Source: an uncultured Anaerolineaceae bacterium (lineage in GTDB: Bacteria > Chloroflexota > Anaerolineae > Promineifilales > Promineifilaceae). From it: 40,273 nucleotides of DNA. The notes under the pieces were generated by a model. It saw only the letters and a list, made by a program, of their open reading frames with translations. It ran no database searches and had not been told where the DNA came from. Where the stretch lies: assembly GCA_937967805.1 (NCBI GenBank), contig CALBTC010000046.1:1-40273 (forward strand), read 5' to 3'. A program made the position numbers and the translations under genes. Shown here one piece after another: positions 1 to 40,046 of this stretch (position 1 is its first letter; the number at the start of each line of letters is the position of its first letter).

Positions 1-705
1 ATGATGATCTACCGTGACGCGCTCGTCAAAGACGAAGCAGTTGCCCTGCCACAAGCTTTCTTCCGGCGGCACCGTTTCCAGATATTTTAGAATGCCATCC
101 TTCAGGTGAAACACTTCTTCAAAACCTTGTTCCAGCAAGTAGGCAGTGGCCTTTTCACAGCGGATGCCGCCGGTGCAAAACATGGCCACCTTTTTGTGGC
201 GGCCGGGGTCCAGATTTTGGCGCACAAATTCGGGGAACTGGTTGAAAGCGGCCGTTTGCGGATTGATCGCTCCGTTGAATGTGCCCAACTCCACCTCAAA
301 ATCATTACGGGTATCAACCAAAATCACGTCCGGATCGCTGATGAGGGCGTTCCACTCACTGGCGGGCACGTACTGGCCCACCTGTTTTTGTGGCGTGATG
401 TCCGGTCTACCGAGGTTGACAATTTCCTGCTTGAGCCGCACCTTCATCCGACCAAACGGCATAAAATCGGCCATGGATTCCTTGTGGGTCAGGTCGGCAA
501 AGGCCGGGGCCCGGCGCAGGTCAGCCAGCACGGCATCGACCCCGCTGCGGCTGCCGGCAATGGTGCCGTTAATCCCTTCGGCCGCCAGCAAAATGGAGCC
601 TTTGACCTCCTGGGAAATGCAGAAATCGCGCAACGGCCGTTGCCTCTGCTGGTAATCAGGCAATTCTACAAATTTATAAAACGAAGCGATGATTATTGAA
701 GACAT
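1..705 (-). CDS. trhO: tRNA uridine hydroxylase TrhO (rhodanese-like, YceA family), 3' end cut by window edge
   Basis: The 235 visible codons match the TrhO/YceA family, which carries out oxygen-dependent 5-hydroxylation of uridine 34 in some tRNAs. Residues 1-100 form the N-terminal domain, with the family signature [11 protein letters not shown] at 41-51. Residues about 115-220 form a rhodanese domain with the loop CTGGIRCEK, whose Cys177 is the expected catalytic cysteine. The family is normally about 310-330 residues, so roughly the last quarter lies outside the window. The start at 705 is chosen because a GGTGAG ribosome-binding-like sequence lies just upstream. It is read leftwards and shares no operon with the next gene, which ends in a terminator. 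Family assignment is strong; the enzymatic role is inferred from the family. Confidence 0.9.
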
Positions 706-772
706 GCTCACCACTATACCCCAAGGCAAAAAGCGTGTCATCCTGGCGGGGAGTCCAGCCGGGATAACACGC

Positions 773-807
773 AAAAAAAGTGAGACGCCGGCTAACAGCG
801 TCTCACT
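773..807 (-). terminator. Rho-independent terminator of the secreted-protein gene
   Basis: A perfect 10-bp inverted repeat (AGTGAGACGC at 779-788 and its complement at 798-807, 9-nt loop) is followed on the minus strand by seven T residues (773-779). It begins 9 nt beyond the stop codon of the gene at 816-1751 and separates it from trhO. Confidence 0.85.
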
Positions 808-815
808 CAATTCAA

Positions 816-1751
816 TTAAGCGCCCGAGTCCGGAGTGGTTTGAGGAATCGAGTTACCATTACCATTACCGTTTCCATTGCCACCGTCAGGGCCACCGAAG
901 CCACCACCGCGCAGGCCACCATGGCCGCCGTGCATACCGCGTCCACCATGACCGCCGTGGCCACCGAATCCGCCAAAATGGGGACCGCACTGGCTTAGCA
1001 GCAGGTCAGCCTGTTCCTGGGTAAGCAAACCATCGACGACTGCCTGTTCGAAAGCGGCGCTGCGGGCTTCGGATACGGCCGTCATCAACGTCTCCATATC
1101 GATGCCTTGCTCGTCGGCCAGCTCAAAAATGCGGGTGCCTTCATCGTGGGCGGCGGCCAGATCTTCCACCGTCAGGCCAAGCTGCTCGGCAATGACCGCC
1201 TGGGCATCATCCCGGCTAAAGATCTCTTTGGCCAGGTCGTGCAGGGCGCGCATCTCCAGCATCTCATCAAGCTGCTCCTGGGTGATCGTGCCGTCTTCCA
1301 CCAGTTGGGCCAGCATCGCTTCTTGCACGGCCGTTTGCGCCGTTTCCAGTTCTTCAACCGTCACGCCCAGCTCTTCGGCAATCAGGGCGCGCACTTCGTC
1401 ACGGTCGGGACGGCCGTCGGCGGCCAGCACGGCGTCTCTAACAGCGTCGTGAGCGGCATCCAGGTCCGCAACCGTCACGCCCAACTCCGCGGCCAGCAGC
1501 TCACGCGCCGCTTCCCGGTCGATGAGCCCGTGATGTTGCCCGCGCGGACCGTGATGTCCGAAACGGCCGAATCCAGGCATCGCATCTTCCGTTACTGTTT
1601 CGTCAGTTGATCCATCCTCTTCGGGCACGGTTACCGGATCATCTGTGTCCGGTTCATCCTGGGCAAAGGTGAGGGAACTGCCAATCAAGGCAGCCAGCGC
1701 CAGCAGCACAATCAAAATACCACCAATCTTTACCAATTTGCTTTTGTTCAT
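816..1751 (-). CDS. Secreted protein with tandem helical repeats and a Gly/His-rich tail, function unknown
   Basis: A 311-residue protein with a signal peptide: basic start [10 protein letters not shown], hydrophobic core 11-28, probable cleavage after Ala30. After an acidic linker come at least three related segments built around 'LxAExLGVTVxxLxxAxxxVxxA', two of them ending in 'QEQxDxxL'. These look like small repeated helical modules. The last 60 residues are Gly, His and Asn rich ([17 protein letters not shown]), and a second HHGPRGQHH patch follows the linker, which suggests metal binding, though this is not proven. The start at 1751 is preferred over an in-frame ATG 18 nt upstream because GGAGGT sits 6 nt before it. 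It is monocistronic, with its own terminator. I do not recognise a named family. Confidence 0.8.
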
Positions 1752-1890
1752 TTGTTTACCTCCGAACAATTTTTAATGCTGTTTCTTTATAATTGGCCGG
1801 CGTTTTTTTGCGTCGACAATCAAAGATTAGCAACAACTTGTTCAGAAAATGTGAAGAACTTTTAGCAAATTCGTAAAATTTATGATTGAA

Positions 1891-1962
1891 CTGCGGAGGC
1901 ACAGAGAACGCAGAGGATTTTCTTGGAGATTTTTTATCTCCGTGTCCTCTGCGTCTCTGCGG
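1891..1962. repeat. Imperfect palindromic intergenic repeat (CACAGAGA / CGCAGAGG type)
   Basis: CGCAGAGGA (1909-1917) pairs with TCCTCTGCG (1945-1953), and the stem extends with one bulge through CAGAGA/TCTCTG. An inner hairpin GGAGA...TCTCC lies at 1925-1941. The element sits between two minus-strand genes. Related sequences occur at 26320-26350, 29657-29722 and 37573-37664. Confidence 0.75.
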
Positions 1963-1974
1963 TAAAAATCGGAG

Positions 1975-4494
1975 TTATCTTTTGGCGGCTTCTAGACGGG
2001 ATTGAACGGCCGTAACCGAATCCAGCTTTAACACTTCAGCCGCTAACGCCTCGGCCTCCGGCAGCGACCATTGACGCAACGCGGCTTTTACGCCGGGCAC
2101 AGATGGCGCAGCCATGCTCAGCTCCGTCAGGCCCAGCCCCAGCAGTAGCGGCGTAGCCAGGGGGTTGCCGGCCATCTCGCCGCATATACCCAGCCAGATA
2201 CCAGCCTCTTTGGCGGCAACGGCCGTTTGCTTAATCATGCGCAAGACGGCCGGTTGCAGCGCCTGGGCCAGCTCGGCTACGTTCGCGTTACCCCGGTCGG
2301 CAGCCATCACGTACTGGGTCAGATCATTGGTGCCCAGGCTAAAAAAGTCGACCTCGGCAGCCAGCAGATCGGCCACGGCCACCGCCGAAGGCAGTTCAAC
2401 CATGATGCCAACTTCCATGTCGGCGTCAAACGGTTTGCCCTCGGCCTGGAGCTGCTCACGAGCGGTTTGCAGCATCTCTTTGGCGCGGCGCAGCTCCGCC
2501 AACGTACCAATCATGGGGAACATCAGCTTCACGTTGGCCGGGGTGCCATCAGCCAATACGCTGGCGCGCAAAATGGCGCGCAGTTGGGGCATAAAAATTT
2601 CCGGCTTGTCCAGGCAAAAGCGAATACCACGCCAGCCCAAAAACGGATTTTCTTCTTGTCCCAAATCCAGGTAAGGCAGCGGCTTATCGCCAACCACGTC
2701 TAGCGTGAGAATGATCAGCGGCCGACTGCCCTGGTTAGCCAGGGTGCCCAATCCGGCCACCACCTGCCGGTAGGCGGCCAGCTGCTCCTCCTCACTGGGC
2801 GCTTCGCTGCGATCCAGGAACAAAAACTCGGTGCGGAACAACCCCACGCCTTCGGCACCGTAGCTCAAGGCAACGTCTACGTCGTTGAGGCCACCGATGT
2901 TGGCAGCGACCTCAATGCGCAGGCCGTCGGCAGTTAATGCCGCCGCCTGGCCGGCATCTTTAGCGGCCTGTTGCTCCGCCTGCCAGACATCCCGGGCAGC
3001 CTGCAAGTTGGCAATTTCTGCCTTGTTGGGATTGAGCCAGAGCTGACCGGTACGGCCGTCCATCGCCAGCAGCGCCCCATCTTCCACCTGAGACAGCTGG
3101 TTGCCCACGCCCACCACGGCAGGAATGCCCAGGGCACGGGCTAAAATGGCGCTGTGCGACGTGACACCACCCAGCTCGGTGCAGATGCCCAGCACCTGTT
3201 TGGGGTCCAACTGCGCCGTATCGGAGGGGGTTAAATCGACGGCGGCCAGGATGTACGGCCGTTCTGCCTGCAAGGGTGGGAGTTCAACGCCCAGCAAATG
3301 GCGCAGCACCCGGTTGCCCACATCGCGAACGTCAGCCGCCCGCGCCTGGAAATAGGGATCATCCAGATTTTGAAACCTGGCAGCCGTTTGTTCTATGGCA
3401 TCGGCCCAGGCCGCTTCAACATTGATCTTGCTGGCGTCCAGGTAATTTTTTACGGCCGTTTGCAATTCCGGGTCTTGCACGATGAGCTGGTGTGCCTCAA
3501 AAATAGCCGCCTCTGCGACGCCAATCTTCTTTTCGGTTTTCTTTTGCAGCGATTCAAGCTCAGCAATGGTGGTTTGAACGGCCGTTTGCAGCCGCTCCCA
3601 TTCAGCAGCGCTCTCTTTGCCCGTCTCTCGCGGCACGGCGGGCAACTTGGGCCGGTACTGCAAAACCGGACCCATCGCCACGCCCGGTGATGCCGCCAGG
3701 CCATGAAGCGTGCCGTCTTTCAGCGCCGGCGCTGCTGGGGCAGCTTCTGCCACCTGTTGCTCAGCCTCCGTTTCACCAAAATTTTCCAAAGCAAGCTGTT
3801 TAAACGCTTCAAGCGCGGCGGCGCTGTCAGGGCCCACGGCCGTTATCTCAATCGTTTCACCCTGGCGTACCGCCAACGTAGTTACCTGATTGATGCTTTT
3901 GGCATTGGCCGCAGCCTTCCCTTTTTTGACAAGGATATCCGACTGGAACCGGTTGGCCGTGCGCACAAAGTTTACCGCCGGGCGGGCATGAAGTCCCAAT
4001 TTGTTGGCCACAACCAGGCTAAGTTGGCGGCGTCCGGCAGATGACAACAAGGAGTCGTCTACATCTGCGTCAGACGTCGGAGCAACCAGGTTAAGCTGCC
4101 TGATTTTGGCAGCCAGCGAGCCATCGGCTTCAACTAAAACCTGATCCAGGGTTCCGCCTACCATTGCCTGCACGGCCGCCGCCATGGTCCCTTCGACCAG
4201 CGGTGCCGTACTTAGCTTCACGTTCGCTTGCTGCTCTTCTGGCAAAAATTCCAGCGCCATTTCTGCGCTCAACAGCGCGCTGCCCAAATCCATGAGCACC
4301 AATACGCCATCTTCGCTATAGACTGACTTGATGGCCGCAAGCACCTTCATGGGATCAGTACCAATAGGCTGATCCGGATCGTCGATGCCGCCGGCTGTAG
4401 CCAGGGGTACCTGGCCCTGGGCAATTTGTTCAGCCAGTTCGCGAATACCATTCGCCAGAGCAGAACTGTGCGAAACAACAACAATGCCTACCAT
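1975..4494 (-). CDS. dhaM: DhaM-HPr-Enzyme I fusion: complete PEP-to-DHA-kinase phosphotransferase
   Basis: An 839-residue three-part PTS protein. Residues 1-130 form a DhaM (mannose EIIA-like) domain with VVVSHS and phosphorylatable His9. Residues 155-240 form an HPr domain with GLHARPA (His169) and the Ser46-equivalent region AKSINQV. Residues 262-835 form Enzyme I: GGVTSHSAILA with His447, GLFRTEFLF, a PEP-binding barrel with EVGIMVELPSA and FSLGTNDLTQY, and GICGEMAGNP with Cys771. E. coli DhaM carries only a truncated EI, whereas this one is full length and so should take phosphate from PEP itself and pass it to DhaL-bound ADP. It is the last gene of the glpF-dhaK-dhaL-glpK-dhaM series, 100 nt after glpK. 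Domain identification is very secure; self-sufficiency is inference. Confidence 0.95.
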   Translation of the reverse strand: MVGIVVVSHSSALANGIRELAEQIAQGQVPLATAGGIDDPDQPIGTDPMKVLAAIKSVYSEDGVLVLMDLGSALLSAEMALEFLPEEQQANVKLSTAPLVEGTMAAAVQAMVGGTLDQVLVEADGSLAAKIRQLNLVAPTSDADVDDSLLSSAGRRQLSLVVANKLGLHARPAVNFVRTANRFQSDILVKKGKAAANAKSINQVTTLAVRQGETIEITAVGPDSAAALEAFKQLALENFGETEAEQQVAEAAPAAPALKDGTLHGLAASPGVAMGPVLQYRPKLPAVPRETGKESAAEWERLQTAVQTTIAELESLQKKTEKKIGVAEAAIFEAHQLIVQDPELQTAVKNYLDASKINVEAAWADAIEQTAARFQNLDDPYFQARAADVRDVGNRVLRHLLGVELPPLQAERPYILAAVDLTPSDTAQLDPKQVLGICTELGGVTSHSAILARALGIPAVVGVGNQLSQVEDGALLAMDGRTGQLWLNPNKAEIANLQAARDVWQAEQQAAKDAGQAAALTADGLRIEVAANIGGLNDVDVALSYGAEGVGLFRTEFLFLDRSEAPSEEEQLAAYRQVVAGLGTLANQGSRPLIILTLDVVGDKPLPYLDLGQEENPFLGWRGIRFCLDKPEIFMPQLRAILRASVLADGTPANVKLMFPMIGTLAELRRAKEMLQTAREQLQAEGKPFDADMEVGIMVELPSAVAVADLLAAEVDFFSLGTNDLTQYVMAADRGNANVAELAQALQPAVLRMIKQTAVAAKEAGIWLGICGEMAGNPLATPLLLGLGLTELSMAAPSVPGVKAALRQWSLPEAEALAAEVLKLDSVTAVQSRLEAAKR

Positions 4495-4523
4495 AATTTT
4501 GGCCTACCAACCTGGGGTAATTA

Positions 4524-4562
4524 GAAGGTTCTCAACGGCCGTTTCAACCGCCAAGAACCTTC
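4524..4562 (-). terminator. Stem-loop between glpK and dhaM, possible partial terminator
   Basis: Perfect 9-bp arms GAAGGTTCT (4524-4532) and AGAACCTTC (4554-4562) enclose a 21-nt loop that itself contains the ACGGCCGT palindrome. Only a weak T-rich tail (TAATTA) follows on the minus strand, so it may allow read-through into dhaM or act as an mRNA-processing or stability element. Confidence 0.4.
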
Positions 4563-4594
4563 CTGATTAACAATCAAAAGACAGGGTTACTGGG

Positions 4595-6100: not shown

Positions 6101-6149
6101 TTTTACTCCTTCCTCATACGTAACCTGCCAGCAGGCCAGATTACCTCAA

Positions 6150-6779
6150 TTACTCTTTAATCGTTTCTAACAAGGCGTTCAATATCAGGTAAGATGATGT
6201 AGCCCCAGGATCCTGGTGGCCAATACTACGTTCACCTAAATAACTGGCCCGGCCTTTACGGGCCTGAAGAGGTATTGTGTTTTTCATGCCTTGCTCGGCG
6301 GCGGCAACGGCCGTTTGCAGCATCTCCACCGTTCCTTTCCCTGCCGACAAGTCATCCTGCATGGCCTCAAGGGCGGGGGCCCAGGCATCATACATCGTTT
6401 TATCTTCCAGATTGGGCCGGCCTCTTTGCAAGATACCTTCAACACCAGCCTGAAGCAGCTTAAATAAATCGTCGTTGTTGAGCTCTTCCTTGGCAGCCAT
6501 CACCATGCCGCTGCGCATAAAAAACGTGCCATACAGCGGACCGCTGGCACCGCCAACGCTGGAAATAAGCGTCAGTCCGGCCGTTTTCAGGATGTTGCCA
6601 ATATCTTTGTCTGCCACCGTGGGCAACTTTTCCATCACCTTTTTGAATCCGCGATCCATGTTTATGCCGTGGTCGGCGTCTCCAATGGCAGAATCCAACT
6701 GGGTAAGATACTCTCTATTTTCCTTTAAAACGGCTGCGGTATTTTCTAGCCACTTCACTATCTGGTCTTTGGTTATCAT
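6150..6779 (-). CDS. dhaL: Dihydroxyacetone kinase ADP-binding subunit DhaL
   Basis: A 209-residue DhaL. It carries tightly bound ADP-Mg that is re-phosphorylated by DhaM and transfers phosphate to DHA held on DhaK. The metal-binding motif IGDADHG supplies Asp29, Asp34 and Asp36, followed by SSVGGASGPLYG and the C-terminal RKGRASYLGERSIGHQDPG nucleotide-binding region. Length equals the PTS-dependent DhaL of E. coli, not the fused ATP-dependent kinases. GGAG lies about 10 nt upstream. It follows dhaK after 113 nt that hold a palindromic repeat, and precedes glpK by 49 nt. Confidence 0.96.
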   Translation of the reverse strand: MITKDQIVKWLENTAAVLKENREYLTQLDSAIGDADHGINMDRGFKKVMEKLPTVADKDIGNILKTAGLTLISSVGGASGPLYGTFFMRSGMVMAAKEELNNDDLFKLLQAGVEGILQRGRPNLEDKTMYDAWAPALEAMQDDLSAGKGTVEMLQTAVAAAEQGMKNTIPLQARKGRASYLGERSIGHQDPGATSSYLILNALLETIKE

Positions 6780-6800
6780 GTAAGACCTGCTCCTTCTATT

Positions 6801-6891: not shown

Positions 6892-6892
6892 T

Positions 6893-7966
6893 TTAGGCTC
6901 CCCAGCGCAAACCGGGCGTGTTCACCGGTGCATCCCAGAATTTGAGAATTTCATCATCTGTCTTGACGAGGGTGATGGAACAACCCTGCATTTCTAGCGA
7001 GGTGATGTAGGGGCCAATCAAATTGCGGACAATCTTTACACCGCGTGCTTCACATTCGGCTGCCAATTTACGATAGACAGCGTACAGTTCAGATACTGGT
7101 GTACCACCCATGCTGTTAACAAAAGCAATAACGGAATCGCCAGATTTAAACGGTTCATCGGTGAGTTCTTTGTCGACCCAGGTACCGTTTTCGTTGTCCC
7201 ATTCACGCACGGTGCGGGTGTAGGCGTCATCATCCAAAACGGCCGCAGCCATCATGGCTGTAATTTCATCGACGGGTTTCATAGGCAGGCGCTGCCGCCC
7301 CGGCTCGCCGTGAATACCAATGCCGAATTCAAATTCGCCTTCGCCCAGGTCGAAGGTAGGTTTACCGGCTGCCGGTACAATGCAAGATGTCAGGGCGATG
7401 CCGATGGAACGGCCGTTCATATTCACTTTTCGCGCCAAATCGGCACATTGATCCAGGTCGTAGCCCGCTTCGGCGGCGGCACCCACGACTTTTTCAGCAA
7501 TCACCGTGGTGCCAACGCCACGCCGGCCAGCTGTATACAAACTATCCTTCACGGCTGCATCGTCGTCGATAAGAATGGATTGCACCTTGATGCCATCAGC
7601 ATAGGCCAGCTCTGCAGCTGTTTCAAAATTTAAAACATCCCCGGTGTAATTCTTAACCAGGAACAACACACCGGCTCCACCGTCCACAGCCTTGGCGCAT
7701 TCATACATTTGGTCTGGCGTCGGCGAGGTGAACACCTCACCAGGGCAGGCACCGTCTAACATGCCCATGCCCACGAAGCCACCATGCATCGGCTCGTGGC
7801 CGCTGCCACCGCCAGAAACCAGGGCTACTTTCCCTTCAACAGGAGCATCAGCACGCGTCACAAAAAAGGGATCGTAATTGACATTTAGCGCATCAGCATG
7901 GGCCAAGGCCATTCCCTCTAGTTGTTCTTTGACAACATCATCAACCCCATTAATTAATTTTTTCAT
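6893..7966 (-). CDS. dhaK: Dihydroxyacetone kinase substrate-binding subunit DhaK
   Basis: A 357-residue DhaK that binds DHA covalently and receives phosphate from DhaL to give DHAP. The substrate-binding segment [16 protein letters not shown] (51-66) includes His57, KNYTGD lies at 105-110, and GIGIHGEPG contains His219, the residue that forms the hemiaminal bond with the ketone. The length matches the PTS-type subunit. AAGGAG lies about 10 nt upstream of the start. It is separated from glpF by 152 nt carrying a terminator-like hairpin, so it may be transcribed by read-through or from its own promoter. Confidence 0.96.
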
Positions 7967-7990
7967 GTAACAACGCTCCTTGAATTAGGC

Positions 7991-8078: not shown

Positions 8079-8118
8079 CATATTAGGTCTTACGCTTATT
8101 ATTTGACTTTTCAGGTTC

Positions 8119-15305: not shown

Positions 15306-15492
15306 TGTTTTCGTTCCCGGTTTTGCCGTTTGGTTTATATGAACGGCCGTTTGCTTAACAATGATCACACTATAGCGGAGGCGGCTTTTTAAGGCGACGA
15401 CATACGTGCCACGGCTCCTGCACTCAAGTGCGTCAGATTTCACATGAGCAGGTTACACTTCTATGAGCGGGGCACACCACCATGAATGGAAA

Positions 15493-24982: not shown

Positions 24983-25062
24983 GCGTAATTGGACTGGCTG
25001 CCGGAAACGGCCGTCTGCACTTCGTTCATCTTCCCAGGAGAGGTGTGTTCAAGTCGTTTCCC

Positions 25063-26109: not shown

Positions 26110-26313
26110 ATGTGTCGTAGTATTAAACAATTACGCAATGCCGAAGTGCCGGCCACGCCGGAGGAGATTGAAGCCGCGGCTCTTCAATTTGTGCGCAAGG
26201 TGTCTGGCTACAGACGGCCGTCTCGCACCAACGAAGCCGCCTTCGAGCAAGCCATCACCGAAATCAGCACCGCCACCGCAAAGCTGCTCAACAGTTTAGT
26301 AACACGATCTTAA
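26110..26313 (+). CDS. DUF2277 family small protein
   Basis: A 67-residue protein starting MCRSIKQLRN and continuing ATPEEIEAAALQFVRKVSGYRRPSRTNEAAFEQA, the highly conserved pattern of DUF2277. Members are short, all-helical, cytoplasmic and of unknown function. The invariant N-terminal Cys2 is present. An AT-rich repeat lies directly upstream and a PEP/pyruvate-binding protein gene follows after 57 nt, so the two may be co-transcribed. The family call is confident; nothing can be said of the role. Confidence 0.9.
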   Translation: MCRSIKQLRNAEVPATPEEIEAAALQFVRKVSGYRRPSRTNEAAFEQAITEISTATAKLLNSLVTRS

Positions 26314-31264: not shown

Positions 31265-31841
31265 CGCCATTTTTGCGGGCGATGAGCTGGGCCACATGGC
31301 GCATCTTGCCGGAGCGCTGGCCACGCACTTCGGTTTCGGCCGAGTGAATGATCTGGAAGTCAGCAAATGCCTGGTGCAGTTCGCCCGGTTCCAGGAAGTA
31401 GCTGGGTGTTTCTTCTTCCCCAACATGGACAAACGTCTCAAAAAAGAGCAGCCCGCCGGGGCGCAGCGCCTGGCGATAGGCGGCAAAAGCCGCCCGCTGC
31501 AAAAAGCGGAAGTTGAGAACGGCATCGACACAGTTTGGTGGAAAATAGGGCTGGGTGAGATCGAAAACGGCCGTTTCCACCCTCACCCCCAACGCCGCCG
31601 CCCGCTGCCGCAGCAGCCGCAGCCCCACCTCCGAAATATCCAGCGCCACCACCGGCAACCCCTGCTGCGCCACAAACAGCGCGTTCACCCCAACCCCCGC
31701 CGCCGCATCCAGCACTACCCCATCTTTAGGCAGCAGATGGACAAAATCTTGCAGCATGTAGCTGGGGTGGCCTTTTTGCCGGTATTGGCCGTCGGATCGG
31801 TAACGGCCGTTCCACTTCACTGCATCTGGGTGTTTGGTCAT
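31260..31841 (-). CDS. Class I SAM-dependent methyltransferase (TehB/UbiE-like)
   Basis: A 193-residue Rossmann-fold methyltransferase. Motif I is VVLDAAAGVGVNALFVAQQG (about 42-61), the acidic residue of motif II is in VVALDIS, motif IV region is VDAVLNF, and GGLLFFETF is the post-motif strand. The opening KWNGRYRSDGQY is typical of small TehB-like or tellurite/thiol methyltransferases. Substrate cannot be inferred. Its ATG overlaps the stop of dam by four bases (ATGA), so the two are translationally coupled. Confidence 0.85.
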   Translation of the reverse strand: MTKHPDAVKWNGRYRSDGQYRQKGHPSYMLQDFVHLLPKDGVVLDAAAGVGVNALFVAQQGLPVVALDISEVGLRLLRQRAAALGVRVETAVFDLTQPYFPPNCVDAVLNFRFLQRAAFAAYRQALRPGGLLFFETFVHVGEEETPSYFLEPGELHQAFADFQIIHSAETEVRGQRSGKMRHVAQLIARKNGV

Positions 31842-32641
31842 GTTTTGAAAAGCGCCAGCAGTTCGGCGGCTTTGTCCCGTTTGTCGCCGTTGCAGCTGAT
31901 GAAGCGGCGCACCGCAAACGTTTCGATCTCCGCCGCTTCGTACGCTTGGCGCACTTCCTCCGTATCGTGATTGGAAATGATGACGGGGATGCCGCGCCGG
32001 GCCAGCTTGGCCGCCTGCCGGGCCAGCTCGGTTTGCTCGGCCCAGCCAAAGCCGTTGGCACTGTAGCTGGTGAAGTTGGCCGTGTCGGATAGGGGCACGT
32101 AAGGCGGATCGCAGTAAACCACATCCCCCGGCTGGCAGGCGGTAATCGTGGTGACAAAGTTTGTGTGCTCAAAGGTAGCGTGTTGTGCTTGCTGGACAAA
32201 GTGGCGCATTTCAGCTTCGGGGAAGTACGGCCGTTTATACCGGCCAAACGGCACGTTAAAACCCCCTTTCATGTTGTAGCGACACAGGCCATTGTAACCA
32301 TGCTTGTTCATATACAAGAAAATGGCAGACTTACGCCACAGGTCGCTGGTGTTGTTGAACTCATCGCGCAGTTCGTAGTAACGATCTTTGTCGTTGGTTT
32401 CCGGCGTAAACAAGGGGCGGCAGTAGTCAATAAATCGCTCCCCTTCTGCCTGCAAATGTTTATACAAATTGATCAGGTCTTCATTGGCATCGGTGAGTAG
32501 ATACTTGGGATAGTCAGTGTTGAGGAACACGGCGCCGGAACCAACAAACGGTTCCACCAACCGTTCACCCGGCGGCAGCAGCGCTTTGATGCGGTCCACA
32601 ATTTTGTATTTGTTTCCGGCCCACTTGAGGAATGGTTTCAT
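31838..32641 (-). CDS. dam: DNA adenine methyltransferase Dam (GATC type)
   Basis: A 267-residue D12-class adenine-N6 methyltransferase closely following E. coli Dam along its length. It has FLKWAGNK (4-11), the SAM motif LVEPFVGSGAVFLNTD, the target-recognition segment RYNMKGGFNVPFGRYKRPYF (121-140, nearly the E. coli GATC-reading sequence), catalytic DPPY (178-181), TANFTSY, ISNHDT and a final LLALFKT. No restriction enzyme is nearby, so it is a solitary Dam. The gene lies 12 nt after a secreted-protein gene and is coupled to the next methyltransferase. Such similarity to a gammaproteobacterial protein may reflect horizontal transfer. Confidence 0.95.
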   Translation of the reverse strand: MKPFLKWAGNKYKIVDRIKALLPPGERLVEPFVGSGAVFLNTDYPKYLLTDANEDLINLYKHLQAEGERFIDYCRPLFTPETNDKDRYYELRDEFNNTSDLWRKSAIFLYMNKHGYNGLCRYNMKGGFNVPFGRYKRPYFPEAEMRHFVQQAQHATFEHTNFVTTITACQPGDVVYCDPPYVPLSDTANFTSYSANGFGWAEQTELARQAAKLARRGIPVIISNHDTEEVRQAYEAAEIETFAVRRFISCNGDKRDKAAELLALFKT

Positions 32642-33272: not shown

Positions 33273-34046
33273 TTATTTAGGCATCTGTTCCAGCAGCCAC
33301 TGCCAGTGCGGCGGCTTTACGAAGGAGATAATCTCCCGCTCTTGCTGTAGATTATAGGCTACATGGCGCATTTCCATTGACCAGCCTTCCGCCTTACGCC
33401 AGGTGAGCAGGCCGTATTTGGCCCGCTTGTCGCCATCGCTAGGCAGGTTAACGGAGCTGATATTGGCTAGAACCATTTCACCCCAGCGGCGCACGTTGGG
33501 TACGTGCAGGTGGCCAAAGGCAATGATGCCCGCGGTGGTGCTTTCCAGCAACGGCCGTAATTCTTCATCACTTTGCGGCCATTTTACCTCGCCTATTTTT
33601 TCCTGCTGGAATTCCTCCGTCGGCATGATGGCCCGGTTTACGTCCAGCGGATTGGCGTGGACGATGAGCAGATCGTCGCTGGCAACGGGCGTTGGCCCAA
33701 TCCGGTGGCTAAACGGCAAACGCTGTAACCAGGCTAAGTGCTCTTGGCCAAGCTGCTGGCGCAGCCAGACGGCTGTCTGGTTGAAGCTTTCCCAGCGCTG
33801 TCGCTCCTCATCATTGGCATCATCGGGCAGTGGGCGGGGCGAGTGAATGAACTCGTCGGTATTGCCGTAAACAAAAACGTCTGTTTCGGCTTTAGCCAGC
33901 TCCAGGCACGCTTTGGGGCGCGCTCCCATCCAACACATATCACCGGCAAAGGCGATGAGATCAGGCGCCTGCTTTTTGATGTCGGCCAGGACCGTTTGCA
34001 GCGCCGTGAGATTGCCATGAACGTCTGAATAAACTGCGATTCGCAT
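33273..34046 (-). CDS. Metallophosphoesterase (calcineurin-like, YfcE/MJ0936-like)
   Basis: A 257-residue cytoplasmic phosphoesterase. The five-motif metal centre is visible: AVYSDVHGN (Asp8, His10), FAGDMCWMG, VYGNTDE, LLIVHANP and FGHLHVP. Family members hydrolyse small phosphodiesters or phosphate esters; the substrate is unknown. ATG 34046 has GGAG 7 nt upstream. The frame is open 24 codons further, but that part overlaps two repeat hairpins. It is the first gene of a minus-strand group with the secreted protein, dam and a methyltransferase. Confidence 0.9.
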   Translation of the reverse strand: MRIAVYSDVHGNLTALQTVLADIKKQAPDLIAFAGDMCWMGARPKACLELAKAETDVFVYGNTDEFIHSPRPLPDDANDEERQRWESFNQTAVWLRQQLGQEHLAWLQRLPFSHRIGPTPVASDDLLIVHANPLDVNRAIMPTEEFQQEKIGEVKWPQSDEELRPLLESTTAGIIAFGHLHVPNVRRWGEMVLANISSVNLPSDGDKRAKYGLLTWRKAEGWSMEMRHVAYNLQQEREIISFVKPPHWQWLLEQMPK

Positions 34047-34450: not shown

Positions 34451-35950
34451 ATGGCTGAAGCAGATAAAAAGGAAGAGAAAAATGGGGAAGAAAAAGAAAA
34501 AGCTCCCAAACCGGAACCCAAAGACAATCTGGTAGAAACAAAACACGTGGTGACCATCAACGGCCGTCGCATCAACTACACCGTCACCACCGGCACCATC
34601 GTGCTTAAAGAAGAGATTGAAAAAGAAGGCAAGGCAGAAGGGCACAAGCCAAAAGCAGAGATTTTCTTCATTGCCTATACCCGTGATGGTATCAAAGACC
34701 GCAAAAAACGGCCGCTTACCTTTTCCTTCAACGGCGGTCCCGGCTCGTCGTCCGTCTGGCTGCATTTGGGCGTGTTTGGTCCGCGCCGCATTGTCACCGA
34801 CGAGAAAGGCAACCTCTTACAGCCGCCTTACGACCTGATCGAAAACGAATACTCCATTCTGGACCAGACCGACTTGGTGTTTATCGATCCGGTAAGCACC
34901 GGCTACAGCCGCGCCGTGGCGGGGGAAAAACCTAAAGAATTCCATGCCTTCAAGCGGGACATTGAGTACGTGGGCGATTTTATCCGGCTGTATTGTTCGC
35001 GGTACGGCCGTTGGACCTCGCCTAAATTCCTGGCCGGCGAAAGCTACGGCACGACCCGCGCCGCCGGCGTGGCCGGTTACCTGCAAGAGCGGCACGGCAT
35101 GTACCTGAACGGGCTTATGCTCATTTCCGTCGTGCTCAACTTCCAAACCATTCGCTTCCCTGTAGGCAACGATCTGCCCTACATTTTGTACCTGCCCAGC
35201 ATGGCGGCCACCGCCTGGTACCACGACAAGCTGGATAAAAAGCTGCAAGCCAGCCTGGAAGACACAGTCGAAGAAGTGCGCCAGTTTGCCCTCACCGAGT
35301 ACACGCTGGCTCTGATGCAGGGTGCGGCCCTGCCGGAAAAAGAGAAAGTCAAAATCGAGAAGAAGCTGGCCCGCTACCTGGGCCTGTCTCTGGATTATGT
35401 CAAGCGCAGCAATCTGCGTATACAATATTTCCGCTACATCAAAGAGCTGCTGCGCGACCAGCACCGCACCGTCGGTCGGCTGGACAGCCGCTTTTTGGGC
35501 ATCGACCGGGATGCGGCCGGGGAGCATTTTGAATACGATCCCAGCTACGCCGTCATTCAAGGTCCGTACACCGCCACCTTCAACGATTACGTGCGGCAGG
35601 AACTCAACTACGAAAGCGATCTGCCCTACGAAATTTTAAACCCCAAAGTGTGGCCCTGGAATTACGAGCCACACCAAAACGAATTTGCCAACGTTGCCGA
35701 AACGCTGCGCCAGGCAATGACTATCAATCCTTACCTGAAGGTGTATGTCGCTAACGGTTACTACGATCTGGCCACACCGTTCCTGGCCACAGAATACACG
35801 TTCAGCCATTTAGACATTGATCCCACGCTGATGGACAATATCACCATGCACTACTATGAAGCAGGACACATGATGTACGCTCACCTGCCTTCGCTGGCGC
35901 AAATGAAGGTAGATATAGATAATTTTTTGGAAACGGCCGTACCCACCTAA
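34451..35950 (+). CDS. Serine carboxypeptidase-like protein (peptidase S10)
   Basis: A 499-residue alpha/beta hydrolase of the S10 type. It shows the oxyanion segment FNGGPGSSS (93-101), nucleophile Ser198 in GESYG, acid Asp439 in ANGYYDLATP and His473 in EAGHMMYAH. S10 enzymes remove C-terminal residues at acidic pH and are usually exported. This one has no signal peptide but a highly charged Lys/Glu N-terminus (first 25 residues), so it appears cytoplasmic. ATG 34451 has AAGGAG 10-11 nt upstream; the open frame upstream to 34349 is not homologous. It is followed by a repeat and the MttB-like gene. Confidence 0.92.
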   Translation: MAEADKKEEKNGEEKEKAPKPEPKDNLVETKHVVTINGRRINYTVTTGTIVLKEEIEKEGKAEGHKPKAEIFFIAYTRDGIKDRKKRPLTFSFNGGPGSSSVWLHLGVFGPRRIVTDEKGNLLQPPYDLIENEYSILDQTDLVFIDPVSTGYSRAVAGEKPKEFHAFKRDIEYVGDFIRLYCSRYGRWTSPKFLAGESYGTTRAAGVAGYLQERHGMYLNGLMLISVVLNFQTIRFPVGNDLPYILYLPSMAATAWYHDKLDKKLQASLEDTVEEVRQFALTEYTLALMQGAALPEKEKVKIEKKLARYLGLSLDYVKRSNLRIQYFRYIKELLRDQHRTVGRLDSRFLGIDRDAAGEHFEYDPSYAVIQGPYTATFNDYVRQELNYESDLPYEILNPKVWPWNYEPHQNEFANVAETLRQAMTINPYLKVYVANGYYDLATPFLATEYTFSHLDIDPTLMDNITMHYYEAGHMMYAHLPSLAQMKVDIDNFLETAVPT

Positions 35951-36058: not shown

Positions 36059-37567
36059 ATGGCCCGAAAACGCATGCGCAACCGGCCCAGCCCGCACGGC
36101 CCCAACCCCGACCAGGTTGCCAAAATCACCCAGCCTAAATGGACCCTGCCCCCCTACGAAATCGCCTCCACCGAACAGCTTCAGCTCCTCCACGACAAAT
36201 CGATGCAAATTTTAGAAGAAGGCGGCATCGCTTTTTACGATGATGAGTCGATACGCATTCTGGAACAGCATCAGGTTAAAGTTGTGGACCAGATCGCCTA
36301 CTTTGACCGGGCGCAGGTGATGGAATACTTGGCCAAAGCGCCCTCGCAGTTTGTGTGGAACGGCCGTAACCCGGAGCACAACGTCGTTTTGGGCGGCGAC
36401 CATGTGGTATTTGCCCCGGTGGTCGGCCCGCCGTTTATCCGCGATCTGGACCGGGGGCGGCGCGATGGCACGCTGCAAGATTTGCAGAATCTCATCAAGC
36501 TAAGCCAGACCATTCCCTACATGCACAGCCTGGGGGCTGAAAACGTCGTGCCGTCAGACGTGCCCATCGAATACCGCCACCTGGAAACGATGTACGCTCT
36601 GCTCACCACCGGTGACAAGCCGGTGATGGGCGTGTACCACACCGGCCCCATTGCCGCCGACACGCTGGCGCTGGCCAAAATTATGTACGGCGAGGAAGCG
36701 CTGCGGCAGAATCACATCCTGCACTGCGTCGTCAACGTCAGCAGCCCGCGCCGCCTGGATGACCGGATGCTCAGTATGCTCATCCAGTTTGCCCAACACA
36801 ACCAGATTGTGGACGTGACACCATTCATTTTGTCTGGGGCGATGGGACCGGTTTCCATTTTGGGCAAGGTGGCCCAACTCAATGCCGAAGCGCTGGCCGG
36901 CATCGTCTTTGCCCAGATGGTCAATCCCGGCACACCCTGCATTTACGGCTCCTTCCAGGCCGTTTTGGATTTGCAAAGCGGCGCCCCCGTCTTTGGCGCA
37001 CCAGAAAGCCAGCTTGCCCTCTACCTGAGCGCCCAACTGGCCCGGATGTACAACTTGCCCTTCCGCGCTGCCGGAGCCTATGCCAGCTCCAAAATTATCG
37101 ACGCCCAGGGGGCGTATGAAAGCGTGATGGCCATGTTCCCGTCGATGCTGGTACGGCCGAATTTTGTCCTGCACGCCGCCGGTTGGCTGGAAGGCGGGCT
37201 TACCGCCGGTTATGAAAAGTTTGTTCTCGACTGCGAGCTGCTGGGCATGTACCATCGCTACCTGCAAAACGTCAGTTGGGAAGAAGACGAGTGGGCGCTG
37301 GACACGATCATCAACGAGGTGCCGCCCGGCGGCCACCATTTGGGCAGCAGCCACACCATGCGCCATTACCGCACCGCCTTTTACCGGGCCAGCCTGTTTG
37401 ATTATGATTCGGCCGAGGCGTGGGAAGCCGGCGGCAGCATCGATTCCATTCAGCGGGCCAACCAAAAATACAAACAGCTCCTGCGCCAGTACGAAAAACC
37501 CGAACTGGACCCCGGCACCGACGAAGCCCTGCGCGACTTCATCGAGCGCCGCAAGCAGGAATTATAA
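36059..37567 (+). CDS. MttB-like trimethylamine/betaine methyltransferase family protein, non-pyrrolysine
   Basis: A 502-residue member of the trimethylamine methyltransferase (COG5598) family. Supporting segments are LPPYEIASTEQLQLLHDKSMQILEEGGI at the N-terminus, DGTLQDLQNLIKLSQTIPYMHSLG, SGAMGPVSILGKVAQLNAEALAGIVFAQMVNPGTPCIYGSF, the GAPVFGAPESQLALYLSAQLARMYNLPFR core and TMRHYRTAFYRASLFD near the end. It is read through without an in-frame amber codon, so it is of the non-pyrrolysine type (for example glycine-betaine methyltransferase MtgB). Its corrinoid partner and reductive activase are not in the window. GGAG lies 8 nt before ATG. The following M20 peptidase is 115 nt downstream, separated by a repeat. 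Substrate unknown. Confidence 0.88.
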   Translation: MARKRMRNRPSPHGPNPDQVAKITQPKWTLPPYEIASTEQLQLLHDKSMQILEEGGIAFYDDESIRILEQHQVKVVDQIAYFDRAQVMEYLAKAPSQFVWNGRNPEHNVVLGGDHVVFAPVVGPPFIRDLDRGRRDGTLQDLQNLIKLSQTIPYMHSLGAENVVPSDVPIEYRHLETMYALLTTGDKPVMGVYHTGPIAADTLALAKIMYGEEALRQNHILHCVVNVSSPRRLDDRMLSMLIQFAQHNQIVDVTPFILSGAMGPVSILGKVAQLNAEALAGIVFAQMVNPGTPCIYGSFQAVLDLQSGAPVFGAPESQLALYLSAQLARMYNLPFRAAGAYASSKIIDAQGAYESVMAMFPSMLVRPNFVLHAAGWLEGGLTAGYEKFVLDCELLGMYHRYLQNVSWEEDEWALDTIINEVPPGGHHLGSSHTMRHYRTAFYRASLFDYDSAEAWEAGGSIDSIQRANQKYKQLLRQYEKPELDPGTDEALRDFIERRKQEL

Positions 37568-37682: not shown

Positions 37683-38951
37683 ATGAAAAAGTTTGAACAA
37701 GCCGTCCTCGACCAATTAGATTTTGACGGCCTGCTGCACGCGCTGGACCGACTGGTGCAGATTCCCAGTTTGGACGGCACTGCCGAAGAAGTAAAGGTGC
37801 AGGCGGAAACGGCCGTTCTCATGCAATCGCTCGGGCTGGAGGTAGAAACCTGGGAAATCGACTTTGCCGAACTGCAAACGCATCCCGCCTACACCGCCGA
37901 AGTGGAGCGCACCGCCGGCCTGGGCGTGCTGGGCAGCTACGGCCGTGGCGAAGGCCCCACACTCATCCTCAACGGCCACACTGACGTCGTTCCCGCCGGC
38001 GAACTGGAGCGCTGGCATTTTCCACCCTGGCGCGCCACCTTCAACGAGGCAGACGGCAACGTCTACGGCCGTGGCGCTTTAGACATGAAAGGCGGCCTTT
38101 GCTGCGCCCTGTTTGCCGTCAAAGCGATCATCGACGCCGGCGTGCAGCTAAAGGGGCGGGTGCTGGTACAGTCAGTCATTGGCGAGGAGGATGGCGGGGC
38201 GGGTACGCTGGCGGCTGTTCTCCATGGCCCAAAAGCCGATGCCGCCATCGTCGTGGAGCCAACGGAGCTAATGATTGCCCCGGCACAGGCTGGGGCCTAC
38301 AACTTCCGCGTGACCATCCCTGGCAAGGCGGCACACGGCGCCATGCGCTTTGAGGGTGTCGATCCGCTGGAGCAGTTTTTGCTGGTTTACCAGGCTATTC
38401 TCGATTTAGAAAAAATTCGCAACCAGGCTGACGATCATCCGATGTTTGCCAGCTATCCGGTGCCGTATCCCATTTGCGTGGGCAAAATTCATGGCGGCGT
38501 TTGGGCCTCGACCGTGGCCGAAACGCTCACGTTTGAAGGGCGCTACGGGGTGAAGATTGGTGAAGACCCGGCGGCGGCCAAACAACAGTTAGAGGATCAT
38601 GTGTTGACGGCCGTACAAACCGATCCCTGGCTCAAAGAAAATCCGCCCGTCATTGAGTGGTGGGGCGCCCAGTTTGACCCGGCTGAGATTGCGGCGGACC
38701 ATGCGATTGTGTTGGAAACGGCCGTTTCCTTCCAGGAGATCACCGGAACCTCTGCCCAAATCCAGGGCATGCCCTACGGTGCCGACATGCGCCTGCTGGT
38801 CAACGTGGGCGGCATCCCCACCATCCTCTTTGGCCCCGGCGACGTGCGCAAAGCCCACCAACCCGACGAACACGTTCCCCTGGCCGACCTCAAAACCTGC
38901 ACCCAAACCCTGGCCCTCACCATCCTCCGCTTTTGCCAGGTTGCCGACTAA
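37683..38951 (+). CDS. M20-family metallopeptidase (ArgE/DapE-like deacylase)
   Basis: A 422-residue di-zinc amidohydrolase of the ArgE/DapE/CPG2 type. The zinc ligands are visible: NGHTDVVP with His99, GRGALDMKGG with Asp, GEEDGG with the catalytic and ligand Glu, VVEPTEL, and a final AHQPDEHV. The dimerisation lid domain lies about 200-310. It would remove an acyl or formyl group, or cleave a small peptide or acyl-amino acid; exact substrate not deducible. It follows the MttB-like gene in the same direction. Five copies of ACGGCCGT occur in the gene (as Tyr-Gly-Arg and Thr-Ala-Val). Confidence 0.92.
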   Translation: MKKFEQAVLDQLDFDGLLHALDRLVQIPSLDGTAEEVKVQAETAVLMQSLGLEVETWEIDFAELQTHPAYTAEVERTAGLGVLGSYGRGEGPTLILNGHTDVVPAGELERWHFPPWRATFNEADGNVYGRGALDMKGGLCCALFAVKAIIDAGVQLKGRVLVQSVIGEEDGGAGTLAAVLHGPKADAAIVVEPTELMIAPAQAGAYNFRVTIPGKAAHGAMRFEGVDPLEQFLLVYQAILDLEKIRNQADDHPMFASYPVPYPICVGKIHGGVWASTVAETLTFEGRYGVKIGEDPAAAKQQLEDHVLTAVQTDPWLKENPPVIEWWGAQFDPAEIAADHAIVLETAVSFQEITGTSAQIQGMPYGADMRLLVNVGGIPTILFGPGDVRKAHQPDEHVPLADLKTCTQTLALTILRFCQVAD

Positions 38952-38989
38952 CCACAATTGTCATGCCGTTATTCACCTGCGCCCTCCCC

Positions 38990-39061
38990 TTGTCATTAGT
39001 GTAACGAGGAATCTTACGCCGCTTCCAGTCGTAGGATTCCTCACTGCGTTCGGAATGACAA
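38990..39061. repeat. Palindromic intergenic repeat (TTGTCATT ... AATGACAA)
   Basis: TTGTCATTAGTGTAACGAGG (from 38990) continues to AATCTTACG and faces the partly complementary CGTAGGATTCCTCACTGCG (from 39030), which continues to CGGAATGACAA (end 39061). The two halves form a large imperfect hairpin. A related fragment lies at about 13094-13113. Together with the promoter and leader hairpin this accounts for most of the 351-nt gap before the MerR gene. Confidence 0.65.
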
Positions 39062-39178
39062 TGGAGGTGGTATTCAGAAACAAGACCATCAAGGGGTTGT
39101 TTCTTTTCTCATAGAACGCCGTGCGCGGTGTGGCCGCTTTCAGACTGACAAGTTCGTGGATCAAATTCAAAATTCCCC

Positions 39179-39209
39179 TTGACATTGACGTTACGTCATA
39201 CTTTATGAT
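39179..39209 (+). promoter_or_regulatory. MerR-type promoter with 19-bp spacer and internal dyad
   Basis: TTGACA (39179-39184) and TATGAT (39204-39209) are separated by 19 bp. The spacer contains the dyad TGACGT-T-ACGTCA (39186-39198). Over-long spacing with an operator between -35 and -10 is the hallmark of MerR-activated promoters, and the MerR gene lies just downstream, so autoregulation is very likely. Confidence 0.8.
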
Positions 39210-39220
39210 GGTTCCAGTTG

Positions 39221-39276
39221 AACCTCCCGCAGGTTTAAACCAGGGCCAGGCTCGTAGACGAAACCTGCGGGAGGTT
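39221..39276 (+). other. 16-bp inverted repeat in the leader of the MerR gene
   Basis: AACCTCCCGCAGGTTT (39221-39236) and AAACCTGCGGGAGGTT (39261-39276) are perfectly complementary with a 24-nt loop. It lies wholly inside the predicted 5' untranslated region, ends 16 nt before the ribosome-binding site and has no T-tract. It may be an mRNA-stability or attenuation element. Confidence 0.6.
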
Positions 39277-39302
39277 TTCGTCGGAGCCTTGTGGAGATGC
39301 GC

Positions 39303-40046
39303 ATGTACACGATTAAACAGTTAGCCGACCTGGCCAACGTGAGCCGCCGCACTTTACGGTATTATGACCAGATTGATTTGCTGAAGCCAACGGCCGTTGG
39401 CGACAACAATTACCGTTACTACGATCAAGATACCGTCCTGCGGCTGCAACAAATCCGCTTCTACCAGGAGATGGATTTCAGCCTGGACGACATTCGGCAA
39501 ATTCTAGACAAGTCCGATTTCAACACGCTGCAATCGCTGCAAACCCAAAAAGGTGCGTTGCAGCAGCAAGCCAAACGGCTGGAGCGGTTGATCAACACCA
39601 TTGATAAAACGATCTTGCATTTAGAAGGAAAAATTAAGATGGACAACAAAGAATTATTCGCCGGCTTTGATGAAGCCAAACAAAAAGCATATGCCGAAGA
39701 AGCAGAACGCCGTTGGGACCCCAAGCTGGTGCGCGAATCCAACCAGCGCTGGAACCGGCTGAGCCTAGAAGAAAAGGAAGCCATCCTGCAAGAAGGCAAC
39801 CAGATTTACAGCGACATGATCGACCAGCTTGATGCTGAACCGGACAGCGAAGCTGTGCAGACCATTGTCGCCCGCTGGCACCAGCACATCCAGCACTTCT
39901 ACGAACCTGGCCTGGCCACGCTGCGCGCCCTGGGGCAAGGCTATGCCGCTGACCCCGCCTTCCGCGCCACGTTTGAAGCGATGCATCCCGACCTGCCGGA
40001 CTTCTTGCACGAGGCGATTACCGTTTACTGCGACAACAACAGCTAA
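39303..40046 (+). CDS. MerR-family regulator with TipAS-type ligand domain
   Basis: A 247-residue regulator. It has an N-terminal winged HTH (YTIKQLADLANVSRRTLRYYDQIDLLKP), a wing and RxYYDQDTVLRLQQIRFYQEMDFSLDDIRQIL, a coiled-coil dimer helix (about 75-105) and a C-terminal TipAS-like domain (about 115-245) of the kind that captures thiopeptides or other antibiotics in TipAL. TipAS features are the KYAEEAExRW-like helix (QKAYAEEAERRWDPK) and WHQHIQHFYEP. ATG 39303 has GGAG 6 nt upstream; in-frame GTG/ATG starts at 39291/39297 overlap that site. Its promoter shows the expected operator. Possibly a multidrug-sensing autoregulator. Confidence 0.92.
   Translation: MYTIKQLADLANVSRRTLRYYDQIDLLKPTAVGDNNYRYYDQDTVLRLQQIRFYQEMDFSLDDIRQILDKSDFNTLQSLQTQKGALQQQAKRLERLINTIDKTILHLEGKIKMDNKELFAGFDEAKQKAYAEEAERRWDPKLVRESNQRWNRLSLEEKEAILQEGNQIYSDMIDQLDAEPDSEAVQTIVARWHQHIQHFYEPGLATLRALGQGYAADPAFRATFEAMHPDLPDFLHEAITVYCDNNS

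Follow-up and report, generated by a model that had tools for sequence, protein, structure and literature searches.

Why should one octanucleotide palindrome, ACGGCCGT, recur throughout a 40,273-bp stretch of DNA from an uncultured Anaerolineaceae bacterium (contig CALBTC010000046.1; the whole stretch is here termed the window)? A preliminary description of this DNA counted about 60 copies against about one expected and proposed a signal like HIP1, the highly iterated palindrome (HIP) of cyanobacteria. The window holds exactly 60 exact copies, spanning positions 633 (first start) to 39397 (last end; Table 1), while 0.84 are expected from base composition and 0.72, 1.69, 2.97 and 6.46 from Markov models of orders 1 to 4. 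The runner-up among the 256 palindromic octamers tested is CGCCGGCG with 8 copies, and HIP1 proper (GCGATCGC) lies outside the top 15, the motif here being ACGGCCGT. The near-variant ACGGCCGC also recurs, as first described, with 14 copies over both strands versus 7.1 expected (Markov order 3). The spread over all three frames and intergenic DNA is likewise as reported: by mechanical gene calls (longest open reading frames), 56 of the 60 copies are genic (28, 24 and 4 by frame) and 4 lie between genes.

The window's own genome is represented by the window alone, and genome-wide counts come from relatives, for which the chorismate synthase of the window served as anchor. This search returned 62 loci, the nearest two sharing 95% and 92% amino acid identity and labelled Anaerolineaceae and Anaerolineae. 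Among the 20 whole genomes reached via Chloroflexota loci, 15 have 2,982-15,176 copies of ACGGCCGT (versus 20-459 of a reversed-sequence control) and five have 122-657. In the order around genome G002, 28 of the 56 genomes carry 0.44-2.1 copies per kb, up to 15,176 copies; these carriers are termed A-type. Copy density in G014 (0.51 per kb) and G420 (0.42) is like that of the sparsest carriers, with flanks that mostly do not match. In an even draw of 400 Chloroflexota genomes, with G002 set apart, none of the 399 reaches 0.2 per kb, and the highest count (646 in 3.6 Mb) is that of G164, itself in the same order. Pooled over 27 carriers (1.13 Mb), the observed/expected ratio (O/E) is 74 under a Markov model of order 3, with overlapping fetched loci (45 of 1,961 kb) masked before counting. 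Thus, ACGGCCGT is a genome-wide signal of one Chloroflexota order and is not local to the window. The whole-genome counts of the relatives bear out a HIP1-like signal in a Chloroflexota genome: they show neither a near-Markov frequency nor an excess confined to the window, the two outcomes that the preliminary description had held against its proposal. The motif is classed here as a HIP outside the cyanobacteria, from another phylum and with another core. The order is probably Promineifilales, as relatives of a protein from these genomes are named Candidatus Leptofilum, which NCBI places there. Spacing of the copies is near random (coefficient of variation of the gaps 1.04, 0.99 and 0.87 for sets of 562, 304 and 60 sites); the largest set, contig C12 of G008, is mildly clumped (variance/mean 1.5-1.9), and no regular spacing was found.

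The hexamer CGGCCG forms the core of the palindrome, and the outer pair switches with lineage. HIP classes were assigned from samples of 4-285 kb per genome and from the share of CGGCCG with matching flanks. TCGGCCGA (T-type) replaces ACGGCCGT in G018 (74 in 68 kb) and G435 (59 in 47 kb; samples with overlaps removed), GCGGCCGC (G-type) is found in G445 (46 in 40 kb sampled), and CGGCCG without a fixed outer pair (the 6-bp form) is in excess in G014, G016, G420, G449 and G450 (O/E 6.1-8.4, order 2). A weaker excess of CGGCCG alone in G451 (O/E 3.9) is barely above the values of G447 (3.5) and G453 (3.4), which are classed as non-HIP yet have P0001 (a methyltransferase-like family described below). 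G423 (4 kb sampled; 0.44 per kb genome-wide) is classed as A-type mainly by its position in the tree. On a tree of 53 genomes, which is mainly rpoB, midpoint-rooted, of 1,311 columns with a second protein mostly trimmed away, without support values and without G019, G436 and G439, the carriers of ACGGCCGT form one clade with a single loss (G433), beside a seven-genome sister clade without HIP; the other HIP versions fall in a second clade. Single-base departures from ACGGCCGT at position 1 exceed expectation 4.4-fold (to T) and 2.5-fold (to G), against 1.7-fold for both in non-HIP genomes, and those at positions 2-4 occur at 0.5-1.3 times expectation, near background; deviation is, thus, largest at the outer positions and least in the core, as is the case for HIPs. 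Symmetric preferences beyond the octamer are weaker than the motif and lineage-specific: positions -3 and -4 each hold G in about half of the A-type half-sites, 97% of the 34 half-sites of G010 have A at -1, and 35-37% of those in the G007 group have C there. T-type half-sites begin their flank with A or T (-1) in 94% of cases, and 60% of G-type half-sites have C at this position. The half-site sequence of genomes with the 6-bp form has no clear extension beyond the core. In G432 (L126, L269 and L312), CGGCCG is scarce (3 in 29 kb, O/E 0.2) and TGCCGGCA, with 22 copies in 29 kb (about 10-20 times expectation) and 3,665 genome-wide, is a possible replacement palindrome.

Individual sites are conserved well beyond expectation. 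Seven genome or locus pairs were aligned (alignments of <250 columns or <78% identity excluded; three pairs use G007 as query and two the window), with expectations from context-matched substitution rates, overlaps removed and a common site counted once from each genome. The window shares 22 of 25 sites with G003 at 84% identity (exact comparisons 44/47 versus 11.9 expected) and 20 of 23 with G001 (40/43 versus 8.7). Common sites number 39 of 47 for G007/G020 (78/85 versus 41.7), 25 of 28 for G007/G012 (50/53 versus 23.4), 17 of 22 for G007/G004 (34/39 versus 15.5), 8 of 10 for L005/L006 (16/18 versus 4.7) and 5 of 8 for L002/L013 (10/13 versus 3.8). Where the amino acid is the same (changed amino acids excluded), codons are identical in 265 of 271 cases inside HIPs versus 3,059 of 3,972 outside. 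Beside common sites, which were chosen as identical so that only their flanks are informative, substitution is ordinary (0.129 at distance 1, 0.100 at 2-12 and 0.115-0.121 farther out); therefore, protection stops at the edge of the octamer. In rpoB of the A-clade genomes the same site is a HIP in 24/25, 21/24, 18/25 and 16/24 genomes, a fifth in 7/25, and five further sites in one genome each. This conservation acts on the DNA, not the protein, level.

The motif also leaves its imprint on proteins. Of 905 Thr-Ala-Val tripeptides sampled from 27 A-type genomes, ACGGCCGT encodes 876 (97%). This tripeptide reaches 27.5 per 10,000 residues there; the sister clade has 3.9, four further non-HIP genomes have 4.0, genomes with the 6-bp form 5.8 and those of G- and T-type 0.9-2.0. 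A residual signal persists in the sister clade, where 13 of 24 Thr-Ala-Val are encoded by ACGGCCGT. Similarly, TCGGCCGA encodes 71 of 78 Ser-Ala-Asp/Glu in T-type genomes and GCGGCCGC 27 of 32 Ala-Ala-Ala in the G-type genome. At four rpoB sites the peptide (YGR, GRPL, GRPF) is common in HIP-free relatives too; at nucleotide 3168 of rpoB, Thr-Ala-Val is found in seven A-type genomes and other residues elsewhere. The motif is denser in coding than in intergenic DNA in five of six HIP-bearing samples (the exception is G435), intergenic copies of ACGGCCGT amount to 0.8-1.8 per kb in three samples of A-type, and every frame is used. It follows that the force is exerted on DNA and that proteins have been reshaped by it. 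The preliminary description, which had set aside both codon bias and protein motifs as explanations, is upheld for codon bias and needs correction in that the motif does shape proteins.

Copies extend to phage and plasmid-like contigs, some of which carry 1-3.7 ACGGCCGT per kb. A scan of IMG/VR for close pairs of ACGGCCGT, a selection that favours dense contigs and takes several loci from one contig, returned at least 120 loci, at least 22 of which have at least 6 copies and 1 per kb; among the matches listed, the reversed control gave 1/120 and TCGGCCGA 0/120 dense loci. A scan with wider spacing added at least 13 dense loci among 106 matches listed, and after removal of the retrieving pairs 33 of the 226 matches listed keep at least 4 copies and 0.7 per kb. 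Of eight dense loci whose gene content was read, four are marked by clear phage genes: L432 and L493 have a large terminase, L447 a capsid/protease and L504 a tape measure. Loci L400, L454 and L544 belong to the 100-kb contig 3300033417_000002 of IMG/VR, where the density of ACGGCCGT climbs to 3.7 per kb over 13 kb, more than in any whole genome counted (maximum 2.1); with FtsK-like and ParA-like genes in L400, this contig looks plasmid-like. The motif alone suggests that the hosts of such dense contigs are these bacteria. L543, a HIP-dense contig of the virus collection, has a 603-residue DNA methyltransferase (phrog_116) and two phosphoadenosine phosphosulfate reductase-like proteins.

Which protein might read the palindrome was approached by a survey of PF00145, PF01555, PF02086 and P0001 over the 56 genomes. 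The 5-methylcytosine methyltransferases (PF00145) are rejected as common cause, being present in 26 of the 56 genomes and missing from 14 of the 28 A-type carriers. In a comparison of 30 such proteins picked by position (at least four, in the wrong frame, were left out), the proteins from G016, G449 and G392 resemble one another at 67-76%, and that of G449 is nearest to PDB entries 3lx6/3me5 ('cytosine-specific methyltransferase'), which we take to be Dcm-like. PF01555 is not common to all carriers either, as G004, G019, G423 and G003 have no more than weak matches, and it was these matches that led to P0001; the first three genomes have no PF00145 match and only PF01555 matches below cut-off. 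The Dam-type gene of the window is also rejected, as Dam-type matches occur in 45 of the 56 genomes, with and without HIP, and are weak or absent in the carriers G010, G012 and G013. The guess of a methyltransferase in the preliminary description, thus, gains partial support: PF00145, PF01555 and Dam-type genes are not common to every carrier, while P0001, a solitary methyltransferase-like protein from a different family, tracks the 8-bp form with exceptions.

P0001 is modelled as a protein of about 660 residues with a class I methyltransferase (S-adenosylmethionine) fold and a DPPY-type motif IV. Orthologs occur in 29 of 31 genomes with the 8-bp form and in none of 7 with a lost or core-only form (hypergeometric p 2.9e-6), genomes that are not independent, the seven representing three losses on the tree (G433, G420 and one clade of five). 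If G014 and G420 are counted as 8-bp carriers, the ratios become 29/33 versus 0/5 (hypergeometric p about 2.5e-4, by hand); against all other genomes they are 29/31 versus 14/25 (p 0.0013). The family is nearly restricted to the order, with 2 close orthologs outside its 56 genomes in the 400-genome draw (no more than 3 candidates scored per genome). Weak profile matches are to NCBIfam NF042963 (76 bits, cut-off 1000) and to the PADLOC models MTase_II, PglX and DUF1156; Foldseek with the whole P0001 model gave no match at E <= 0.001, and no defence gene was recognised by eye in the flanks of P0001 in four genomes. With orthologs also in 14 of 18 other genomes that lack the signal, P0001 is a candidate reader of the palindrome and no more.

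The reading preferred here, albeit tentatively, is that ACGGCCGT is a HIP and the target of a dedicated palindrome-reading DNA enzyme, its copies being actively kept, also on phage and plasmid-like elements. The reader would be the solitary P0001 family with its orthologs; it would modify the palindrome, the modified sites may serve repair and recombination as a mark of self or of strand, and loss of a site would be selected against or repaired back. Mismatch repair is available, as MutL is above cut-off in 51 of the 56 genomes. Several observations weigh against this assignment. P0001 is present in 14 of 19 genomes without the 8-bp or 6-bp form, including the seven of the sister clade on the tree, and in two genomes outside the order without HIP in samples of about 18 kb, while the HIP carriers G019 and G443 lack it (their assemblies may be incomplete). 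Six genomes have CGGCCG excess without P0001; thus, P0001 does not cause the core. The best structural neighbours of the P0001 model are tRNA methyltransferases, such that the substrate could be RNA, and a reader could also belong outside PF00145, PF01555 and PF02086. Excess of the core in genomes that lack P0001, and the gene's presence in the HIP-free sister clade, point to a second factor that would set the core. Such a separate factor is proposed by likeness to cyanobacterial HIP1, in which one enzyme reads GATC and another CGATCG within it (PMC4390886, section 2.5).

The symmetric extensions make a non-methylating binding protein the strongest rival: an abundant dimeric DNA-binding protein, nucleoid or replication-linked, would leave a symmetric footprint longer than 8 bp, and selection would keep its sites with methylation uninvolved. 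Preferences outside the octamer in A-, T- and G-type half-sites suit this proposal, as do the mismatches between P0001 and HIP just described and the three methyltransferase families that are not common to all carriers; it is made rather unlikely by the near-random spacing (mild clumping in one contig), by phage and plasmid-like contigs (chosen by close pairs) that are in some cases as dense as chromosomes or denser, and by the lack of an identified candidate protein. Also unlikely, and a little more so, is that the motif is a functionless by-product of methyl-directed mismatch repair, with repair biased near methylated cytosines as in Elhai's cyanobacterial model. Of the six single-base changes at positions 2-3, five are at 0.51-0.69 of expectation (C2>T 1.11; counts 10-72), and in non-HIP genomes at 0.72-0.84 (C2>T 1.13), as if part of those in carriers had been converted to HIPs; MutL is present, and such a force would account for the strong effect on proteins. 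Under Elhai's model, sites should have G-methyl-C at their edge and saturate close to one per kb (PMC4390886, section 3.4). In the present genomes, by contrast, A, T or G is the outer base, sites number up to 2.3 per kb with near-random gaps, and G004, G019 and G423 have the deficit of PF00145 and PF01555 noted above. There is no sign of Vsr-like repair, as ATGGCCGT is not depleted (1.11 of expectation versus 1.13 in non-HIP genomes).

A DNA-uptake signal, spread by recombination in transformable cells that prefer the motif (molecular drive), is improbable. Drive can build up motifs that lack other function, according to part of PMC1939737, and the presence of ACGGCCGT on phage and plasmid-like contigs is compatible with it; by contrast, the uptake consensus sequences known from the same part of that source are non-palindromic, and single rpoB sites are common to 24/25 and 21/24 A-clade genomes. 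There is next to no chance that codon bias, a protein motif or an assembly artefact is responsible. Most copies are genic and frames 0 and 1 dominate, as codon bias would have it, yet the intergenic density, the use of all frames and the better preservation of codons inside the motif refute it, and the signal is seen in 28 separate assemblies while samples of the sister clade lack it.

A wider proposal, which we judge less likely than not, is that palindromic 'address codes' form a convergent class of genome-wide systems and are no peculiarity of cyanobacteria. The version of this Chloroflexota order would have the CGGCCG core, with outer pair and extension set by lineage; it would be preserved site by site while synonymous positions drift, be strong enough to put tripeptides into the proteome, extend to phages and plasmids of the lineage, and have as reader a solitary methyltransferase that is missing where the 8-bp form is lost. 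An independent HIP beyond the cyanobacteria, built on its own core and with natural outer-pair switches, one loss within the carrier clade (G433) and a named candidate enzyme, offers a comparative experiment in which modification, binding and repair are testable across genomes that differ in one feature. The motif that dictates protein sequence and its copies on mobile elements are constraints that any theory of HIPs must meet. In addition, ACGGCCGT could mark phage and plasmid contigs of these uncultured hosts.

Other features of the window and its relatives were noted alongside the palindrome. The window's chorismate synthase is 65-71% identical to many homologues of Rhodopirellula and Rubripirellula (Planctomycetota), which suggests, from sequence likeness, an old transfer involving that phylum. 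Positions 1975-15091 form a glycerol/dihydroxyacetone cluster, with an EIIA-HPr-EI fusion, a glycerol kinase-like FGGY kinase, an aquaporin and a glycerol-3-phosphate dehydrogenase-like protein by Pfam, and DhaL-like and DhaK-like proteins, a regulator and a flavin adenine dinucleotide (FAD)-linked oxidase from reading of the open reading frames. At 18528-24933, a 249-residue protein without Pfam match and one of 195 residues are clustered with a subtilase and a TPR-CHAT protein, a set that resembles a regulated protease or conflict module. In G017, G164, G392 and G438-G442, GGCGCC is strongly avoided (65 versus 428.6 expected in 286 kb pooled, with some overlap) and so is GGGCCC (15 versus 160.8), a pattern as under restriction. 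Short hairpin-like repeats in L187 (8990-9090, 12630-12730 and 14728-14830) have many dispersed matches in G004, G012 and G020, and the stretches read do not contain the HIP.

Table 1. Positions in the window of the ACGGCCGT copies and of two genes referred to in the text.
Feature	Position	Strand	Remarks
ACGGCCGT copy 1	633..640		
ACGGCCGT copy 2	1075..1082		
ACGGCCGT copy 3	1327..1334		
ACGGCCGT copy 4	1410..1417		
ACGGCCGT copy 5	2006..2013		
ACGGCCGT copy 6	2219..2226		
ACGGCCGT copy 7	3052..3059		
ACGGCCGT copy 8	3255..3262		
ACGGCCGT copy 9	3452..3459		
ACGGCCGT copy 10	3578..3585		
ACGGCCGT copy 11	3836..3843		
ACGGCCGT copy 12	4535..4542		
ACGGCCGT copy 13	6307..6314		
ACGGCCGT copy 14	7409..7416		
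ACGGCCGT copy 15	9506..9513		
ACGGCCGT copy 16	9998..10005		
ACGGCCGT copy 17	10340..10347		
ACGGCCGT copy 18	10766..10773		
ACGGCCGT copy 19	11214..11221		
ACGGCCGT copy 20	11520..11527		
ACGGCCGT copy 21	12112..12119		
ACGGCCGT copy 22	12339..12346		
ACGGCCGT copy 23	12696..12703		
ACGGCCGT copy 24	13910..13917		
ACGGCCGT copy 25	14003..14010		
ACGGCCGT copy 26	14172..14179		
ACGGCCGT copy 27	14865..14872		
ACGGCCGT copy 28	15014..15021		
ACGGCCGT copy 29	15343..15350		
ACGGCCGT copy 30	15620..15627		
ACGGCCGT copy 31	18000..18007		
ACGGCCGT copy 32	19739..19746		
ACGGCCGT copy 33	20021..20028		
ACGGCCGT copy 34	21645..21652		
ACGGCCGT copy 35	22554..22561		
ACGGCCGT copy 36	25007..25014		
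ACGGCCGT copy 37	25456..25463		
ACGGCCGT copy 38	26214..26221		
ACGGCCGT copy 39	27260..27267		
ACGGCCGT copy 40	27518..27525		
ACGGCCGT copy 41	27809..27816		
ACGGCCGT copy 42	28728..28735		
ACGGCCGT copy 43	29041..29048		
ACGGCCGT copy 44	29350..29357		
ACGGCCGT copy 45	29982..29989		
ACGGCCGT copy 46	30462..30469		
ACGGCCGT copy 47	31567..31574		
ACGGCCGT copy 48	31803..31810		
ACGGCCGT copy 49	32227..32234		
ACGGCCGT copy 50	33551..33558		
ACGGCCGT copy 51	34560..34567		
ACGGCCGT copy 52	35004..35011		
ACGGCCGT copy 53	35933..35940		
ACGGCCGT copy 54	36360..36367		
ACGGCCGT copy 55	37809..37816		
ACGGCCGT copy 56	37939..37946		
ACGGCCGT copy 57	38065..38072		
ACGGCCGT copy 58	38607..38614		
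ACGGCCGT copy 59	38718..38725		
ACGGCCGT copy 60	39390..39397		
Chorismate synthase (aroC)	16289..17533	+	anchor for finding related genomes
Dam-type DNA adenine methyltransferase	31838..32641	-	TIGR00571 297 bits (cut-off 115); PDB 2g1p 7e-95

Among known systems, HIP1 was described in 1995 and, to our knowledge, is without an agreed function; selection on it is reportedly the subject of a 2018 study by Xu, Lawrence and Durand. Chi sites and DNA uptake sequences are, like ACGGCCGT, short and strongly over-represented but are non-palindromic, and Chi sites are also directional, whereas ACGGCCGT is a perfect palindrome that has no direction. The 6-bp form CGGCCG and the G-type form GCGGCCGC equal what we take to be the recognition sequences of EagI and NotI, respectively; unlike in EagI/NotI restriction-modification, the motif here is hugely abundant and not avoided, and the analysis identified no system of this type. 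P0001 resembles the DUF1156 and PglX-type DNA methyltransferases by weak profile matches and differs from them in score and in its size of about 660 residues. No earlier report of the present signal came up in the searches made of open-licence papers.

M.Ssp6803II of Synechocystis carries out GGm4CC methylation, which is linked to DNA repair and replication (PMC6560206, in part); its GGCC target is the centre of ACGGCCGT, while the 4-bp target, the enzyme and the phylum differ. Elhai's alternate cyanobacterial HIPs include GGGATCCC, TCGATCGA, GGCGCC, rCCGGy and GCsGC; CGGCCG is in none of the HIPs named in sections of PMC4390886, and terms for HIP cases outside cyanobacteria do not occur in the part of that source covered. 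The name HIP1 does not fit the present motif, as the nearest loci are of Anaerolineae/Chloroflexi, not cyanobacteria, which limits the name and not the kind. Unlike the cyanobacterial HIPs, ACGGCCGT is from another phylum and has a CGGCCG core, and its cognate methyltransferase is only a candidate. By its general properties it is close to them: HIP1 (GCGATCGC) is a GC-rich palindrome of about 0.5-2.5 copies per kb, comparable to ACGGCCGT (PMC4390886, in part), and a hexamer core with a lineage-dependent switch of the outer base is common to GCGATCGC/TCGATCGA in cyanobacteria and ACGGCCGT/TCGGCCGA/GCGGCCGC here (same source). Both also have soft outer positions and lineage-specific palindromic extensions (PMC4390886, sections 2.3, 2.4 and 2.6).

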